From Neocallimastix lanati (nom. inval.) (lineage: Eukaryota > Neocallimastigomycota > Neocallimastigomycetes > Neocallimastigales > Neocallimastigaceae), in assembly GCA_016946835.1 (NCBI GenBank), contig JACVTC010000025.1:852501-877500 (forward strand): a DNA stretch of 25,000 nt, in the 5' to 3' direction. Positions 4,058 to 25,000 of this stretch are shown one piece after another. The notes below the pieces were generated by a model. That model saw only the letters and a list, made by a program, of their open reading frames with translations, was not told the origin of the DNA and searched no databases. Every line of letters starts with the position of its first letter. Within the stretch, counting starts at the first letter, position 1. Position numbers and translations under genes: made by a program.

Positions 4058-5754
4058 TTAATTCTTGTAGGGACGTTTTCCATTATTACTTCCACCTCTT
4101 CTATTACCCATATTATTTGAATCATTACTACCTCTACTACCACCAGAATAGTTTCTGTTATAGTCTGATCTACCACCACGGTTATTATATGATGAATTCA
4201 TTCTACCATTACCATGATTTTTATTATTTCTCTTTCTTTCTTCAATATTAATCTTAGTACCTTTAATGGTAAATTCACCTCCTTGAACTGCCTTACGAGC
4301 TTGTTCAACTGTAGCAAATTCGACAAAGGCATAATTCTATTAATTAATGAATAATTTTAAATATATAAATATATAAATATATAAATATAAATAAATAAGT
4401 TATTATATTAAATTATATATTAGAATAATTGTTAAGATTATCAAATATACTTTATAATTTATATATTATTTTTTTTTTTAATTAAATAATTTTTTTTAAA
4501 AAATTTATTCTTTTTTTTTTTAAATATTTATTTTTTTTTTTTTTTATTTTATTTTATTATTATTATTATTATTCTTTATTTATATTATACTATTTATATT
4601 TCTTTTATTCAATAATCTATATTACCTTTACTGTATTAATTTCAACATTCTTAATATCACCAAATTTAGTTAAAGCATTAGAAATTTCTTCCTTACTAAC
4701 AGTAAATGGTAATTTAATGAAAACAGTGTAAGAATCCTTATCTTGATTATTATTATTATTATTTCTATTATCTTGATGTTTTTGAGCAGGGACAGAAGCG
4801 GCTTGTTTTACAACAAAAGAACTTTTAGAACTATCGCCTTGAATAACCTTACTATATGATTTAGTAGCATTACTTGGAGTAGAAACAACTGAAGAATAGC
4901 TTATTGGACGATTTTGGGCTGGAGTAGTGTTTGTGGTTGTATTAGTAGCAGTGGAAGCTGCTGGTTTTTCAGCAGCAGCAGCTACTTTAGCAGCGGTTGG
5001 TTTTGGAGCTTCAGTAGTAGATTCTTTAGTAGCTGGAGCAGCTTCCTTCGTTTGGGCAGATTTTTGAGCTGGAGCAGCTTGAGCCTTAGCAGCTTGTGAT
5101 TTATTAGCACCTTCATTAAATTTCTTTTCTTTAGCTGGTTCTGGTTTAGTTTCCTCAACTTTTTCTGGCTTTGTTCCTTTGACTTCTGGTTTAGCTGGTT
5201 CTTCTACTTTTGTTTCTTCTTTAATTTCTTCTTCTTTTTCTTCTTCAGTTTGTTGTATTAATTCTTCACATTCTTCATTTACTTCATCTTTTAAATTTCT
5301 GAAAATATCATTTAATACGTAATAACCATTCTGTTGAACGGCAAGGAAAAAGGTTTGTGCAAATTTAATAGCTTGTTCGTCTCTATTTAACATTTCACCA
5401 AGAACTTGAACAATAATACCTCCATTATTGGATGGTTGACTATCAACATTTGAAACAACAACTCTACATTCTTTGTAATCAATATCTCCAATTCTCTTTC
5501 TTATTTCCTGTTTATTTACAATATTTTTATTTTATTTTATTTTTTTTAAGCAAATAAAAGTATTATTATTGTTGTTGTTTTTGTTATTATTATTTGTTGT
5601 AATTTGTTATTTTTAACGTAAATATTTCATTCATTTGCGAAATTATAAATATAATTTAAAGATATGATAATAAATTATCAATTATTACATTGAAATTATT
5701 AAATTAATAAATTATAATAAAAATAAATTTAATAATTAAATTGTAAAAAAAAGT

Positions 5755-10212: not shown

Positions 10213-13200
10213 TTAATTGTTTTCCTTAGCACCATATTTTAATAATAATTCAATTAATTCTTGATTATTATTCTTACGAGCTATCATAATTGGTGTTTCA
10301 TTATTCTTATTAGCCGCATTAACATCAGCTCCATGTTGTAATAAAACTTCAGCAATAGCTGTACTATTTTGAAGACAGGAAAGAAAGAGGGGTGATTCCT
10401 CTAAATTATTCTTTAAATTAATATCGATATCGGGTTGTTGAAGAAGACGTTTCACAATAGGTAAATTCTTTTTCCAACATGCCATAACTAAAGCTGTTTC
10501 TCCTTTATCATTTCTTAAATTGACATCTGCATGACATTGAAGTAATCGTTCAATCACATCATTTAACCCCTTTTTACAAGCGAGAACTAAGGCGGTTTCA
10601 TCATACTTATTTTGATAGTTTGGATCAGCATTATAATCCAAAAGAACTAAAGCAGATTTAGGTTGACTTTTCTTACAAGCTAAAATAAGTAAGGTATACA
10701 AGGCATTATTTTGCATATTTGGATTTAGACCATATTGAAGCATAGTTTCTAAGGCTTCTGCATTATCAGAAAAGAATAAAAGAGTGAAGGCAAACATATC
10801 TATACTGAGGGTAGTCATTGAAGTGGGACGGGTCTTATTATAATCCTTTATTTTTTCAATAATTTTTACTCTTTCCTTTTCATCCGTATAATTTGATTTA
10901 ACTTGCTGGAAAAGTTCATCAGGTAAATGATAGAGATTACCCTTTTCTTGTACAAGATTTTTATAAAATTTTTCAATTTCTTCTAAATCCTTATTGTAGC
11001 AAGCTGTTTTTAATGGTTTTAAATAATCATCTGGTTTAGGTTCACCTTTAAAACTACTTTGAGATCTAGAACGTTTAACAATTTTTGGATTACTTGATGT
11101 TGATATGGATGTTAATGATGATTTTGATGTTAAAAATGATGACGAGGCTGAGGTTGAAGTTGAAGTTGATTTTGGTAATGTAGAAGCAGAAGTAGAAGAA
11201 GAATTAGAATTGGAAGCAGTAGCAGCGGCATTAGCAATAGCTTCATTTTGTACTTTTTCTTTTGCTATTTCAATAAGTAAATTAGTTGTATATTCTGTAT
11301 CAGATTCTTCTTCTTCTTCTTCTTCTTTTTTTTCATTATTATTATTCGTTTTAAGAAATTCATCATATATATTATGGGGAGACTTTTCATTGTGGAAAGC
11401 TTTTTTCAAATTATAACTGGAAAGCTTCTTATGAAAACCGATAGTATGTTCTGAAAGATTACTGGAATGGTTACGATTAAATTTAGATTCATTTACATTT
11501 TTCTTTAATCTTGATGGGGAGGAAGATGAAGTATGAGAACTTTGATTTTCATTTGGTACAGTAGTTTTAGTATTTTTAGTATTATAGGATTTTCCATGCA
11601 CCTTAACAGAATTGGAAGGATTGACAGGACTGATAGGGTTTGCAGTTGCACTTTCAGTTGAAATTTCATTTGCAGATGTAGATGGAGATGTAGATGTTGC
11701 TTCATTCTTGATAATTTTTTCAAATTTATTGGTACGATTAGTAAGTAATTCAGGATTAAAACTTATATTTCTAGTATGATTAGTCAATCTTCCAGAGGTA
11801 GCAACATGATTAAATTTATTCGTGATACCTTCATTAAAACTTTCATGACGAGAATGCTTTTTATTAATATAGGTATCACCAGTTACTGATCCTGGAGTAT
11901 TCATAAGTTTTCTATTAAATTTAAGGGAAGGTTTATTACCATTCTTCAGTTCGTTTATGTGGGATAAGCTACTATTGCTAACAGCAGAAGAAAATCCATT
12001 GGTAATACTTAAACTAGCTGCATTCCTAGTATGACTTTTATTGAGGAAGGTCTTCTTATCCTCATTTCTTATAATATTTTCATTTAAACTAAGCGTTGAA
12101 CTTTTGTTCTTCAAAGCGGAAAGGTTCTTGAAATGAGAAAATAATAAGGAAACGATACTCTTATACTTATATTCTCTAGCAATATTCAATGGAGATTTAC
12201 CATTTTTATTTTTAAAGGAGACACTGGCTTCATTTTCCAATAATAAACTAGTTAACTTTTTATTATTATTTCTGATACTGTGAAATATGGCCGTCTCTCC
12301 ATTTAAATCATATCTCTTGTTAATGATAGCATGGTGCTCTATTAAAATTTTAGCAATTTTATAATTATTCATACGACAGGCAGCAATTAAAGGTGTTTCC
12401 AATTGAACATTTAAGGTATTAATATTAATATTTTCACATTTTAAAAGTTCATGAATAATTTCTAAATTATTTTCATAGACGGCAATCATGAGAGCAGAAT
12501 TTCCATTTAAATTTTGAATATTAATATTGATGGAGTCATCAGAAAGTAATAATTGAACAATAGAGGTATAATTTTTTTTACAAGCATTATGTAGGGCTGT
12601 ATTACCATAACGATCCATCTTATTAATATCTAAATCCAAATTTAACTGACGATTTTCATGAAGAAGTAATTCCACAACATTTCTTAACCCATAACGACAA
12701 GCTAAAATAAGAGCAGAATCCTTGAAGTCATCGGTAAGATTAATCTTGGCTCGATGGTGTAAAAGAGTCTTTAAAATATCACAATAATTATCATCTACTA
12801 GAACACTAGTATCCATTACTTTATAATGTTTATCAAATGAGTCTTTATGACTTAAAACGGGAAGGTCAGTATTGATTACATTTATATTTCTTTTATTATT
12901 AATTTTTTCCTTATTAAAACTGCTATCATGATCATGATTACCATCATTACTTTCATTCTCAGAAGTTTTAATATCAATAGTTTCAATATCTGAAAGGGTA
13001 TCATCATCACTTTCATAGATGAAAGTAGATTGATCATGATCTTCTTCTTCTTCGTTATCCGATTCATTTTCCATATTATAAAGAACTCTAGAATAGTAAT
13101 TGTTATCAATTATAGAAGAGGCGTTTGAACTTTTATTATTAGCTAAGGTGGTGACAGAAGAAACGGAAGAAGCCACACTCATACCATCCTCTTCATCTCT

Positions 13201-14514
13201 ACTTTTATCAAGATCAGAATCCGTAGAGCAGAGAGGAGCATTTGAATTCATGATTTCATCTTCAAAAGTATTGATCTTCATATCCTTCAATATCTTTTTC
13301 AATGTATAAATTAAAGGCGTATTCTTTTCTGAACCGAATTTAACATCTACATTAATATTAATATCTAAAAGGAGATTGATGATTTCAATATTGGAAGTAT
13401 TAATAGCATTCTTTAATAAATTTTCATTTTCATTCCTTAATAAGAGAGGGCCACCATAGTTAATAAGAGTCTTGATAATAAGAATATTTTCATTTTCAAT
13501 AGCGATACGAAGTGGAGTTTTGTTATCACTGGTAACATGATGAATATCTATATTACGGCAAGTTAATAATAATTTAACAATTTCGAGTTGACCTTCTCTT
13601 ATAGCTAAGGTTAAAGCATTTTCTCCACGATTCACACAATTTAAATCAGCTTTATGTTTCATCATAAATTTAGCCAATTTAACGTAGCCATGACGACAAA
13701 ATTCCATGAATAAAGTATTTCCCTCCTTATTTCTAAGAGTAAGAATTAAATCTTTTTTATTTGGACTTCTACTTTCAATTTCAATAATATCTTTAAGAAG
13801 ATCAGGATGAGACATTAGTTGGAATAAGATATATTCATCATTGATATCCTTGACAAGGGTAGATGCCCCATATTCAATTAAAGTCTTAATTAAATTAACA
13901 TTTTCACTAGCTAAGGCTTCCTCGATTGGGATCCTTCCATCCTTATTTCTAATATTCAAATTAATATTTTTATTCATAAGAGAGGAAATAATATCATAAC
14001 GACCTTTAGCAATAGCAGAGAATATTGGGCTGTTGTTTTGATTATTTTGATTATTAACGTTAACATTGGACTGTAATATTAAATCAATTAAATTTTTATT
14101 TCCATTTTCAATAGCTAACATTAAGCAATGATCACCATTATTGTTTTTAGCATTAATATCTGTAGTATAACTGAGAAGTTTAGATATCAATAATTCATCC
14201 TTATGATGAATTATAGAAAACATTAATGGTGTATTACCATCTTCGTCTCTTTGATTAACAACATTAGGATTTGTACTTAATAATTTATCTAATAATTCGA
14301 TTTTATTCAACGAAATTATCCATCCAAATAATTTTAAACCGAAAGTGTCATTATTTTTAGTTGTTAAATTTGAACTATTTTTAATACCTTTACTATTAGT
14401 ACTCTTTGTTTTCTTGAAATTTTTTTGAACATTATCTTTTCCTAAAAACTTAATATATATATTATATATGAATAATAATATATATATACTAAACACCATT
14501 AATTTTTGTTTCAT
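10213..14514 (-). CDS. Large multi-block ankyrin-repeat protein, 1433 aa open frame
   Basis: A predicted protein-interaction scaffold; no enzymatic domain is visible. Ankyrin block A covers residues about 60-410 (units such as DEDGNTPLMFSIIHHKDELL). Block B covers about 570-795 (DRYGNTALHNACKKNYTSIV). Block C covers about 1245-1430 (NKYDETALVLACKKGLNDVI). Between A and B is an acidic Ser/Asp/Glu linker (415-545). Between B and C is a long Ser/Thr/Asn-rich basic linker (800-1165) with a seven-Glu run near 1064. The ankyrin cores are regular and without internal stops, so the gene is under constraint. The first ATG (14514) gives a hydrophobic N-terminus at residues about 5-23. That segment is almost exactly a 48-nt GT...AG stretch (14489-14442) which could be an intron; if spliced, the protein is soluble and 1417 aa. 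The final 70 residues are a normal ankyrin end. Partner and pathway are unknown. Confidence 0.9.
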   Translation of the reverse strand: MKQKLMVFSIYILLFIYNIYIKFLGKDNVQKNFKKTKSTNSKGIKNSSNLTTKNNDTFGLKLFGWIISLNKIELLDKLLSTNPNVVNQRDEDGNTPLMFSIIHHKDELLISKLLSYTTDINAKNNNGDHCLMLAIENGNKNLIDLILQSNVNVNNQNNQNNSPIFSAIAKGRYDIISSLMNKNINLNIRNKDGRIPIEEALASENVNLIKTLIEYGASTLVKDINDEYILFQLMSHPDLLKDIIEIESRSPNKKDLILTLRNKEGNTLFMEFCRHGYVKLAKFMMKHKADLNCVNRGENALTLAIREGQLEIVKLLLTCRNIDIHHVTSDNKTPLRIAIENENILIIKTLINYGGPLLLRNENENLLKNAINTSNIEIINLLLDININVDVKFGSEKNTPLIYTLKKILKDMKINTFEDEIMNSNAPLCSTDSDLDKSRDEEDGMSVASSVSSVTTLANNKSSNASSIIDNNYYSRVLYNMENESDNEEEEDHDQSTFIYESDDDTLSDIETIDIKTSENESNDGNHDHDSSFNKEKINNKRNINVINTDLPVLSHKDSFDKHYKVMDTSVLVDDNYCDILKTLLHHRAKINLTDDFKDSALILACRYGLRNVVELLLHENRQLNLDLDINKMDRYGNTALHNACKKNYTSIVQLLLSDDSININIQNLNGNSALMIAVYENNLEIIHELLKCENININTLNVQLETPLIAACRMNNYKIAKILIEHHAIINKRYDLNGETAIFHSIRNNNKKLTSLLLENEASVSFKNKNGKSPLNIAREYKYKSIVSLLFSHFKNLSALKNKSSTLSLNENIIRNEDKKTFLNKSHTRNAASLSITNGFSSAVSNSSLSHINELKNGNKPSLKFNRKLMNTPGSVTGDTYINKKHSRHESFNEGITNKFNHVATSGRLTNHTRNISFNPELLTNRTNKFEKIIKNEATSTSPSTSANEISTESATANPISPVNPSNSVKVHGKSYNTKNTKTTVPNENQSSHTSSSSPSRLKKNVNESKFNRNHSSNLSEHTIGFHKKLSSYNLKKAFHNEKSPHNIYDEFLKTNNNNEKKEEEEEEESDTEYTTNLLIEIAKEKVQNEAIANAAATASNSNSSSTSASTLPKSTSTSTSASSSFLTSKSSLTSISTSSNPKIVKRSRSQSSFKGEPKPDDYLKPLKTACYNKDLEEIEKFYKNLVQEKGNLYHLPDELFQQVKSNYTDEKERVKIIEKIKDYNKTRPTSMTTLSIDMFAFTLLFFSDNAEALETMLQYGLNPNMQNNALYTLLILACKKSQPKSALVLLDYNADPNYQNKYDETALVLACKKGLNDVIERLLQCHADVNLRNDKGETALVMACWKKNLPIVKRLLQQPDIDINLKNNLEESPLFLSCLQNSTAIAEVLLQHGADVNAANKNNETPIMIARKNNNQELIELLLKYGAKENN

Positions 14515-23457: not shown

Positions 23458-23553
23458 TGAAAACTTTTAATCTATATTGTATATTATTAAAGATAAAAAA
23501 AAAAAATTAAATAAATAAATAATAAATAAATAAATAAATAAATAAATTATTAA

Positions 23554-23558
23554 TTAAA
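23554..23558. repeat. Target-site duplication, left copy
   Basis: TTAAA immediately before the left LTR, matched exactly by 24914-24918 after the right LTR. Five bp is the usual duplication size for many LTR-element integrases. Confidence 0.9.
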
Positions 23559-23764
23559 TGTTAAGAATTAAGAATTTAGGTTTTATAATTATGTCAACTT
23601 TATTATTATATTTTTGTGATAAAGAGTTACTAGCACTTAATTATTCTAAATTAAATGCTTTTATATTAATACATTGTGGCTAATACATTATTTATATTAC
23701 ATTACATTTTATTACATTAATCTCATATTCACGTATTATAACATCATATTCACATATTCTAACA
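23559..23764 (-). repeat. Left LTR (3' LTR of the minus-strand element)
   Basis: 206 bp, starting TGTTAAGAAT and ending ATTCTAACA on the plus strand, with the short terminal inverted repeat TGTTA/TAACA. It appears identical to 24708-24913. Confidence 0.95.
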
Positions 23765-23773
23765 TTCCCCCCT
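23765..23773 (-). promoter_or_regulatory. Polypurine tract (plus-strand primer)
   Basis: On the minus strand AGGGGGGAA directly abuts the LTR start TGTTAG. It is the only G6 run in the window. It lies at the edge of a possible stem, CCTAAACC (23771-23778) with GGTTTATAGG (23803-23812). Confidence 0.85.
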
Positions 23774-24017
23774 AAACCTAGTTTTTCTAAAAGATAAAAT
23801 TCGGTTTATAGGTGAATATGTGTAAATTACTATTATTCTAAAATTTAATTTTTTACAAAATTTATTCTCTTTTATAAATTTTTCTTAATTGAAATTTTAA
23901 ACATTTAATGCATATTTTTTATTTATTTTATTCAAAAAATTTATATTATTAAATACTATTACGTTTTTGTGGTTAAACGTTTAAACCTTTAATATAATTC
24001 AAACTTAATGTTTATTG

Positions 24018-24244
24018 TAGGTTGGATACTCTTATGGTTTTATACCAATCCTATCTTTATATAAATGTTTATATTTATGGCTACTCTTTAGGTTTTACGC
24101 CATTTAATTATGTTTATATGTATATAGCTACTCTTTAGGATTTACGCTATTTCAATTATGTTTATATGTATATAGCTACTCTTTAGGATTTACGCTATTT
24201 CAATTATGTTTATATGTATGATGACCTCTTGGGTATTACATCAT
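24018..24244 (-). repeat. Array of five hairpins with variable stems and a shared 12-nt loop
   Basis: Plus-strand loops start at 24029, 24084, 24131, 24179 and 24225 (spacing 46-55). Loops are CTCTTATGGTTT, CTCTTTAGGTTT, CTCTTTAGGATT (twice) and CCTCTTGGGTAT. Stems differ but each pairs with itself: TAGG/CCTA plus TTGG/CCAA in hairpin 1 (24018-24053); ATGGC/GCCAT in 2 (24077-24103); ATAGC/GCTAT in 3 and 4 (24124-24150, 24172-24198); ATGATG/CATCAT in 5 (24218-24244). Each has a one-nucleotide bulge on the 3' side near the loop. Units 3 and 4 are a recent 48-bp duplication. Paired changes with a constant loop point to selection on RNA shape. Confidence 0.85.
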
Positions 24245-24354
24245 TTAAGAATCAATATTGTATTTATAAATTATTCTTTAATAAAAAATACTAAATAATA
24301 TTCAAATGATATTTAATTATCAATTAATGTTTTGATGTTTTCAGTATAATTTTC

Positions 24355-24367
24355 ATTAAGAGTCTCA
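24355..24367 (-). promoter_or_regulatory. Internal complement of the primer-binding site
   Basis: ATTAAGAGTCTCA on the plus strand is the exact 13-nt reverse complement of 24694-24706 inside the primer-binding site. In minus-strand RNA it reads like the tRNA-Lys(CUU) anticodon arm and could pair with the site. Confidence 0.7.
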
Positions 24368-24655
24368 GTATTGTATGAGAAAATATAATTTATACTAATA
24401 TATGCTTAAGCTTGTTTATCTCTATTTATTTAATGTTTCTATATGTTTAGAGCTTTAATTTACTTTTATTCTACTTGGGGATTCTCTTTTATCAACTATA
24501 TTAAATTTTTACGCGTTTCTTCAGTTTTTGTAATCTTGATCATTTCAAATGTTCGAAATCAATTTTATTTATTTTTCTAAGATTGACATAATGAGCAACT
24601 TTTATCGCAATTTTAGTTTCCAATTTATTTCCTTGACATAATATTACATTCGGCT

Positions 24656-24681
24656 AAGGATTTCTATTCCAAAGAATCCTT
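24656..24681. repeat. 7-bp stem-loop next to the primer-binding site
   Basis: AAGGATT (24656-24662) pairs with AATCCTT (24675-24681) around a 12-nt loop, two nucleotides from the next stem at 24684-24704. Confidence 0.7.
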
Positions 24682-24683
24682 TC

Positions 24684-24707
24684 TAAGAGTCGATGAGACT
24701 CTTAATC
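24684..24707 (-). promoter_or_regulatory. Primer-binding site for half tRNA-Lys(CUU), folded in an 8-bp hairpin
   Basis: Immediately inside the right LTR, plus-strand ATGAGACTCTTAATC (24693-24707) matches, as I recall it, the anticodon arm of eukaryotic tRNA-Lys(CUU), about nucleotides 26-40. The element's RNA is therefore complementary to the 5' half of that tRNA, as in Drosophila copia and Ty5, which use an internal tRNA-iMet fragment. No TGG-type site is present. The same bases form a perfect stem TAAGAGTC/GACTCTTA (24684-24691 with 24697-24704, loop GATGA). Confidence 0.75.
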
Positions 24708-24913
24708 TGTTAAGAATTAAGAATTTAGGTTTTATAATTATGTCAACTTTATTATTATATTTTTGTGATAAAGAGTTACTAGCACTTAATTATTCTAAAT
24801 TAAATGCTTTTATATTAATACATTGTGGCTAATACATTATTTATATTACATTACATTTTATTACATTAATCTCATATTCACGTATTATAACATCATATTC
24901 ACATATTCTAACA
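24708..24913 (-). repeat. Right LTR (5' LTR of the minus-strand element)
   Basis: 206 bp, same ends as the left LTR. On the minus strand TATAAAAGC lies at 24814-24806, placing the likely RNA start near 24775-24785 and leaving roughly 70 nt of R-U5 before the primer-binding site. Confidence 0.95.
24806..24814 (-). promoter_or_regulatory. TATA box in the 5' LTR
   Basis: TATAAAAGC on the minus strand, about 100 nt into the LTR, at the position expected for the retroelement promoter. The left LTR has the same box at 23657-23665. Confidence 0.6.
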
Positions 24914-24918
24914 TTAAA
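24914..24918. repeat. Target-site duplication, right copy
   Basis: TTAAA directly after the right LTR, identical to 23554-23558. Confidence 0.9.
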
Positions 24919-24975
24919 TAAATTATTAAATTTAATAAATATCTTTTAAAGATATTTAAAATATATATTTAAATT

Positions 24976-25000
24976 TTATTTATTATTTATTATTTATTAT
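24976..25000. repeat. Start of another TTTATTA heptamer array, cut by the window end
   Basis: The last 25 bases are three to four TTTATTA units, the same family as the large arrays to the left. Confidence 0.8.

Follow-up and report, generated by a model that had tools for sequence, protein, structure and literature searches.

A tandem hairpin array and a distal complement of the primer-binding site in small non-coding LTR elements of Neocallimastix lanati

The LTR element in the window

The window is a stretch of 25,000 nt of the Neocallimastix lanati genome (assembly GCA_016946835.1, contig JACVTC010000025.1, positions 852,501 to 877,500 of the forward strand). On its minus strand it encodes a protein with an NTF2 domain (4617-5393), 99% identical to a Neocallimastix sp. 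'constans' protein, and an ankyrin-repeat protein of 1,433 aa (10213-14514). No tRNA gene was detected when the window was scanned for them. Near the end of the window lies a small LTR retrotransposon (Table 1). The first-pass annotation, made from the letters alone, had placed a series of hairpins inside an LTR element, and this setting was confirmed. The two LTRs are 100% identical over 206 nt, begin and end with TG..CA (TGTTA..TAACA) and are flanked by the 5-bp TSD TTAAA at 23554-23558 and 24914-24918, and the element possesses a polypurine tract (PPT) and a primer-binding site (PBS) matching the tRNA-Lys(CUU) gene of the same genome. The 5-bp TSD, the TG..CA ends and the half-tRNA PBS are of Ty1/copia type. 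No ORF of at least 100 aa was found in the interior, and the copia polyprotein is thus absent from the element.

The element resembles TRIMs in being a short, helper-dependent LTR element with terminal direct repeats within 100-250 bp, a PBS after the 5' repeat, a PPT before the 3' repeat and no coding capacity. It differs from them in its covarying hairpin array, in its anti-PBS and in its length of 1,355 nt; since TRIMs are defined as under 1,000 bp in the part of the source available (PMC6934838), it is called TRIM-like here and not a TRIM under that definition.

Table 1. Features of the small LTR element, in window coordinates
Feature	Position	Strand	Description and basis
Small non-autonomous LTR retrotransposon, TRIM-like	23559..24913	(-) = sense	1,355 nt; LTRs, TSD, no ORF, relatives
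5' LTR (sense direction)	24708..24913	(-)	206 nt
PBS	24694..24707	(-)	GATTAAGAGTCTCA, complementary to tRNA-Lys(CUU) nt 27-40, half-tRNA type; own-genome tRNA gene L091, ARAGORN
Local PBS hairpin	24684..24704	(-)	TAAGAGTC-TCATC-GACTCTTA; folds alone at -9.6 kcal/mol
Distal anti-PBS	24355..24367	(-)	TGAGACTCTTAAT, exact PBS complement = tRNA-Lys anticodon-arm letters; recurrence and conservation
Hairpin 5	24218-24244	(-)	stem ATGATG/CATCAT
Hairpin 4	24172-24198	(-)	stem ATAGC/GCTAT
Hairpin 3	24124-24150	(-)	stem ATAGC/GCTAT
Hairpin 2	24077-24103	(-)	stem ATGGC/GCCAT
Hairpin 1 (terminal hairpin)	24018-24053	(-)	TAGGATTGG/CCAACCTA, homologous across families
Polypurine tract	23765..23776	(-)	TTTAGGGGGGAA; same tract in autonomous-type copia L104, same genome
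3' LTR (sense direction)	23559..23764	(-)	206 nt

All five hairpins reported at 24018-24244 were found at those positions on the minus (sense) strand. Hairpins 2-5 form a tandem repeat with a spacing of 46-48 nt. As had been stated for this copy, AAGAG is present in all five loops on the minus strand and the loop of hairpin 1 reads TAAGAGT. The centroid fold of the sense strand contains 5/5 hairpins and its folding energy is ordinary (z -0.70; 46/200 shuffles fold equally well), as is that of the antisense strand (z +0.72; 152/200). Single-sequence folding, significant on neither strand, was therefore rejected as proof of structure; as the fold of the window copy is not special, one copy proves little and the strength of the case comes from its relatives. 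Searches of Rfam gave no family at the gathering threshold for 6 loci and none at E up to 1 for window positions 23500-25000. Downstream of the array, at 23961-23980, a further hairpin ACGTTT/AAACGT encloses AACCACAA; its counterpart in locus L078 is GACATTT/AAATGTC.

Array units in related elements

Relatives were sought in the genome to which the window belongs (199 Mb in 762 contigs). The array as query gave 34 matches, several of which are two pieces of one copy. With the 316-nt piece 24245-24560 as query, at least 40 places were scored and 22, the window's own included, showed 89-100% identity; 21 further places at 89-99% thus stand among the matches listed. The number of hairpins per copy, which the first-pass annotation had wished to see counted, ranges by loop pattern from 3 to 7 units in the window element's family (family A), over 21 loci, some of them the same element. 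Two matches, L024 and L026 (C81:54063 and 61638), are one copy whose hairpin 2 is interrupted by an LTR-like insertion, TGTAAAG...CTTTACA, with CTACT at both ends.

Further families (B, C, D, F with loci L095/L096, and L100) were recognized among 30 PBS-hairpin loci and 11 additional loci. Pairwise interior identity among the families is 52-68% (15 pairs, one representative each). Units occur at the homologous place in five families, A, B, C, F and L100, with the common loop GTAAANCCNAANGAG and differing, mostly self-complementary stems. Copies lacking the array had been named beforehand as evidence against the idea; by pattern, no units were found at the homologous place in any D locus read, nor any in the C locus L084. 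A similar unit further 3' in the D element L064 gave a weak covariance-model match (E 0.066), and the D element L068 gave none. The model was built including B, C, F and L100, so that matches to those are expected by construction; among the 18 sources searched, those from outside the model that matched are L062 at E 0.0002, L023 at E 0.005 and L028 at E 0.02. The loop motif GTAAANCCNAANGAG was counted 110 times in the genome and 9 times in the reversed control. Among 18 short loci examined for it (L106-L123), a terminal hairpin homologous to that of the window is present in eight (L110-L115, L119, L123); its stem differs in some of them, for example TGATTG/CAATCA or AATTG/CAATT, and pairs poorly in L112 and L113. 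No such unit was visible by eye in six (L116-L118, L120-L122), and L106-L109 represent one other family with weak stems. These four loci, which have the loop motif, are identical over the 100 nt compared and contain GTAAAACCCAATGAG with a near-repeat of it upstream.

A pattern using the loop only, without flanks, retrieved 144 units (52 distinct) from distinct elements; after one spurious and one insertion-broken sequence were dropped, 50 distinct units in 141 copies remained. The two arms of a unit pair better with each other than with shuffled partners, a result reached by 5/5000 shuffles over 27 arm combinations and by 6/20000 when one unit per left arm was taken. Covariation was scored in 19 units picked by hand: 18 came from the 50, and the nineteenth is an L019 unit whose loop has changed. 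The selection excludes the terminal hairpins, the B/C classes with arms GAGTAC or ATGAC, near-duplicates and some of the degenerate units. In this set 88.4% of the cells are paired, both sides have changed in 4/5 stem pairs, and the covariation score is 0.469 against 0.256 +/- 0.039 for shuffles, reached by 0/500; slid registers score at most 0.188. Two of the five covariation measures were not above shuffles. For pairs changed on both sides, 100/500 shuffles reached the observed number, and for further pair types 500/500. Extending the stem by the two inner T-A/A-T pairs gives a score of 0.350 vs 0.201, and the inner T-A pair fails in 10/19 units. The classes left out have lower scores, 3-7 against up to 13, and may adopt another fold or be in decay.

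For the terminal hairpin, 13 lineages gave -5.55 vs -4.69 kcal/mol, with 396/20000 shuffles equally low; six of the eight loci above entered this test, L115 (insertion) and L123 (as F) being left out. By eye, at least five independent double changes were recognized, at 4-31 in B/C, at 6-29 in hairpins 3/4, at 8-27 in hairpin 5 and at 7-28 both in hairpin 5 and in L100. Several hairpins thus appear to have a selected structure; the centroid fold favours the sense strand for it, and single stem changes, at 3 G-U against 3 A-C, favour neither strand. Stems are broken in some copies (L014, L017). The earlier claim of selection on RNA structure is supported by the pairs changed on both sides and by the covariation score, two measures of five staying at shuffle level. 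Stem covariation exceeds most controls, though not all, and these alignments are best read as the outcome of selection on RNA structure.

The primer-binding site and its possible partners

The match of the PBS to tRNA-Lys(CUU), claimed in the first-pass annotation, holds for nt 27-40 of the genome's own gene and so implies that a 5' half-tRNA serves as the primer. Such priming is described for Drosophila copia in the accessible part of PMC5371799, and in the FunCo1 copia of ascomycetes the PBS, ATTAAGAGTCT, is directed at an internal stretch of tRNA-Lys (PMC5445492, available in part). The PBS type of FunCo1 is the same as that of the window element, and the two are likened by PBS, phylogeny aside; FunCo1 is a copia with its own proteins, and the part of that article available mentions neither an array nor a distal anti-PBS. 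The PBS 16-mer occurs 935 times in the genome and the PBS-hairpin pattern at 128 exact places, against 0 for each in the reversed control. RNAalifold on the 5' domain of 17 elements recovered the PBS hairpin alone.

The distal anti-PBS, GAGACTCTTAAT, is 12-13 nt long and begins some 310-350 nt beyond the start of the PBS, about 340 nt downstream in the window copy. It has no 3' stem partner and so copies only the pairing half of the anticodon arm. With at most 2 mismatches, the 13-mer was found in 47/59 distinct elements vs 20/1180 resampled sequences. F, L100, L023, L028, L062 and 4/15 D elements lack it or match it poorly, while the A rows L057 and L060 without it are sequence windows that end before the site; in L020 and L022 it lies at about 1115. 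In a set of 12 elements, chosen in the knowledge that they carry it, the anti-PBS window ranks second after the PBS (0.986 vs a mean column identity of 0.557). Among 48 distinct A-D elements, family-weighted, the PBS scored 0.999, AAACGCGTAAAA 0.947, and TCATTATGTCAA and the anti-PBS 0.931 each (mean 0.48), which places the anti-PBS tied third-fourth; it ranks second within A-C and fourth (0.864) when F and L100, both without it, are included. The anti-PBS is thus one among a handful of kept blocks and not the sole one. The block AAACGCGTAAAA (sense, 24507-24518) is the second best-kept 12-nt block in the first 430 nt of all A-D elements and the third in the 12-element set.

Predicted pairing energies of the PBS are -19.8 kcal/mol with the half-tRNA, -18.1 with the anti-PBS and -9.6 to -11.3 with the local hairpin arm, so that it has three possible partners. 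A conserved 14-nt complementarity inside the RNA is also reported for Ty1, as CYC5:CYC3 overlapping the tRNA-complement region (PMC5454406, in the portion available); compared with CYC5:CYC3 and the tRNA boxes described there, the window element's complement is that of the PBS itself. Judged from sequence, the anti-PBS is a stronger and less expected link to the tRNA than the loops of the array.

The U5 letters TTGACATAAT (sense, 24737-24746) are complementary to two copies of ATTATGTCAA downstream of the PBS, at 24633-24642 and 24583-24592, both among the best-kept blocks. In L062 the letters are TTGGTATAAT/ATTATATTAA and pairing is retained through one double change. The arrangement suggests a helix between U5 and the leader, with the PBS inside it.

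Readings of the array

The hairpins stand at the same place in families of 52-68% identity, with a shared loop, stems changing in step and a variable number of units. A structured hairpin array in a clade of non-coding LTR elements, with units gained and lost, is best explained by selection. It could also be a neutral tandem repeat, in which a 48-bp unit that already held a hairpin was multiplied and then drifted, its pairing being inherited and not selected. The difference in unit number between copies, the broken stems in L014 and L017, the ordinary overall folding and the two covariation measures at shuffle level agree with such drift; the arms, however, differ between families and yet match each other, and the loop is kept where the surroundings have diverged to about 60%, which makes this origin quite improbable.

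The first-pass annotation had proposed that the loops kiss the anticodon loop of tRNA-Lys(CUU) and concentrate the primer. The window copy agrees with this, having AAGAG in 5/5 loops, TAAGAGT in hairpin 1 and predicted pairing with the anticodon arm of -7.8 (hairpin 1) and -6.7 kcal/mol (hairpin 2), for the very tRNA that the PBS matches; the available part of PMC7793103 describes for HIV-1 a loop able to pair with the anticodon loop of its primer tRNA. Among relatives, however, the AAGAG core, whose conservation the proposal needs, is found in only 26 of the 50 distinct units, beside ATGAG in 11, ACGAG in 10, ACAAG in 2 and AGGAG in 1 (96, 19, 23, 2 and 1 of the 141 copies), and even this share is overstated, as the search pattern is biased towards such letters; it did not catch the C-family terminal loop, GATAGG. 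Opposite anticodon U35, the column has the lowest information of the loop, 0.19 bit, a value due in part to three hairpin-5 rows aligned one base out of register, while columns 10, 12, 16, 19, 23 and 25 of the unit alignment are invariant. A capture loop of the HIV-1 kind would be expected to keep its anticodon-complementary letters among relatives; in these elements the base that would pair varies most, and the anticodon arm is already matched by the PBS. The tRNA-Lys PBS is retained in families F and L100 (apart from its first base in L100) beside an ATGAG terminal loop, and ACGAG loops also occur in families with this PBS; ATGAG and ACGAG loops are predicted to pair at -4.4 and -4.6 kcal/mol. 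The 5' half of the loop, TAAANCC, is equally conserved, and capture leaves it without explanation. Primer-tRNA capture by the loops is hence not supported and appears very improbable, although a contact of hairpin 1 with the anticodon in family A alone is conceivable: TAAGAGT stands in hairpin 1 of 15/16 family-A sequences found by pattern and was lost in L016 and L022. The loops might instead pair in cis with the CTCTTA of the anti-PBS arms and join the PBS switch, as the TAAGAGT loops of A, B and F are complementary to anti-PBS letters. The same variable base weakens this model, and family F has the TAAGAGT loop without a distal anti-PBS, so that cis pairing seems scarcely credible.

In the search for a possible helper, 150 of 2891 copia RVT_2 candidates were scored, and the hits were compared by eye with 100 of the 935 PBS places, the first ones in order. 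This revealed two copies (C3, C24) of one copia family sharing PBS and PPT with the small element. They show CAGATTAAGAGTCTCA and a weaker PBS hairpin of -6.6 kcal/mol, and C3 has the same TTTAGGGGGGAATGTTA PPT/LTR junction. This candidate helper carries a copia gag (PF14223). Neither the array motif nor a distal anti-PBS was found in the copia parts read (L103-L105; 1.75 + 1.58 kb of C3, 1.40 kb of C24), and none of the 41 PBS-hairpin loci read, of 128 places, is an autonomous partner with the same LTR. The idea of a packaging signal shared with the helper is thereby weakened, unless this copia has its site in another part or a different family is the true helper. The absence of the array from these parts would suit hairpins whose partner is not Gag but an RNA-binding protein of the host, serving RNA stability, export or evasion of silencing. 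Arm pairing and covariation would be expected here too; no host protein is indicated and no Rfam family matched, and we regard this role as unlikely.

Our preferred reading is that of an array selected for multivalent docking of Gag, in a clade of small non-coding LTR elements which would borrow the proteins of an autonomous copia. One RNA-binding protein would dock at each hairpin, the likeliest candidate being the nucleocapsid part of the helper Gag, and repeated sites would raise avidity so that the element RNA is packaged and reverse-transcribed. Separately, pairing of the PBS with the local hairpin arm, the distal anti-PBS or the half-tRNA would control the timing of primer annealing. We hold this combination tentatively, with somewhat less than even confidence. 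A stricter version, in which the three partners actually compete for the PBS beside a variable-number array recruiting a packaging protein, is possible but somewhat unlikely; if true, switch and array would be an RNA-only replication-control unit of a mini-retrotransposon, which would encode in cis the letters by which its primer pairs.

Clusters of several stem-loops mark RNA for packaging in retroviral psi and in the packaging/TIPIRT domain of Ty1, according to the section available of PMC5454406, and BARE2, a Gag-less copia, is packaged in a relative's particles (PMC3735527, likewise in part). The likeness to psi and TIPIRT is that of several stem-loops in an RNA, and by analogy a packaging role may be proposed here; the window array differs in that it repeats one unit in tandem and in variable number, and in that it lies in the 3' half of an element with no coding capacity. 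In the open-licence literature, as far as its texts were available, an earlier report of such an array or anti-PBS was not found. Recognition of non-coding retroelements by a foreign Gag is little understood. As one genome holds many natural variants of one repeated hairpin, its loop and stem requirements are readable from evolution and testable on short RNAs. Through the anti-PBS it likewise becomes testable whether an LTR element can shut its own primer site with an internal copy of the letters by which the primer pairs.

The anticodon-arm 17-mer of tRNA-Lys(CUU) (cf. L091) occurs 73 times in the genome; the occurrences fall on a limited number of contigs and often recur at intervals of 5-6 kb in alternating orientation, as if the tRNA gene lay within a large inverted-repeat array.
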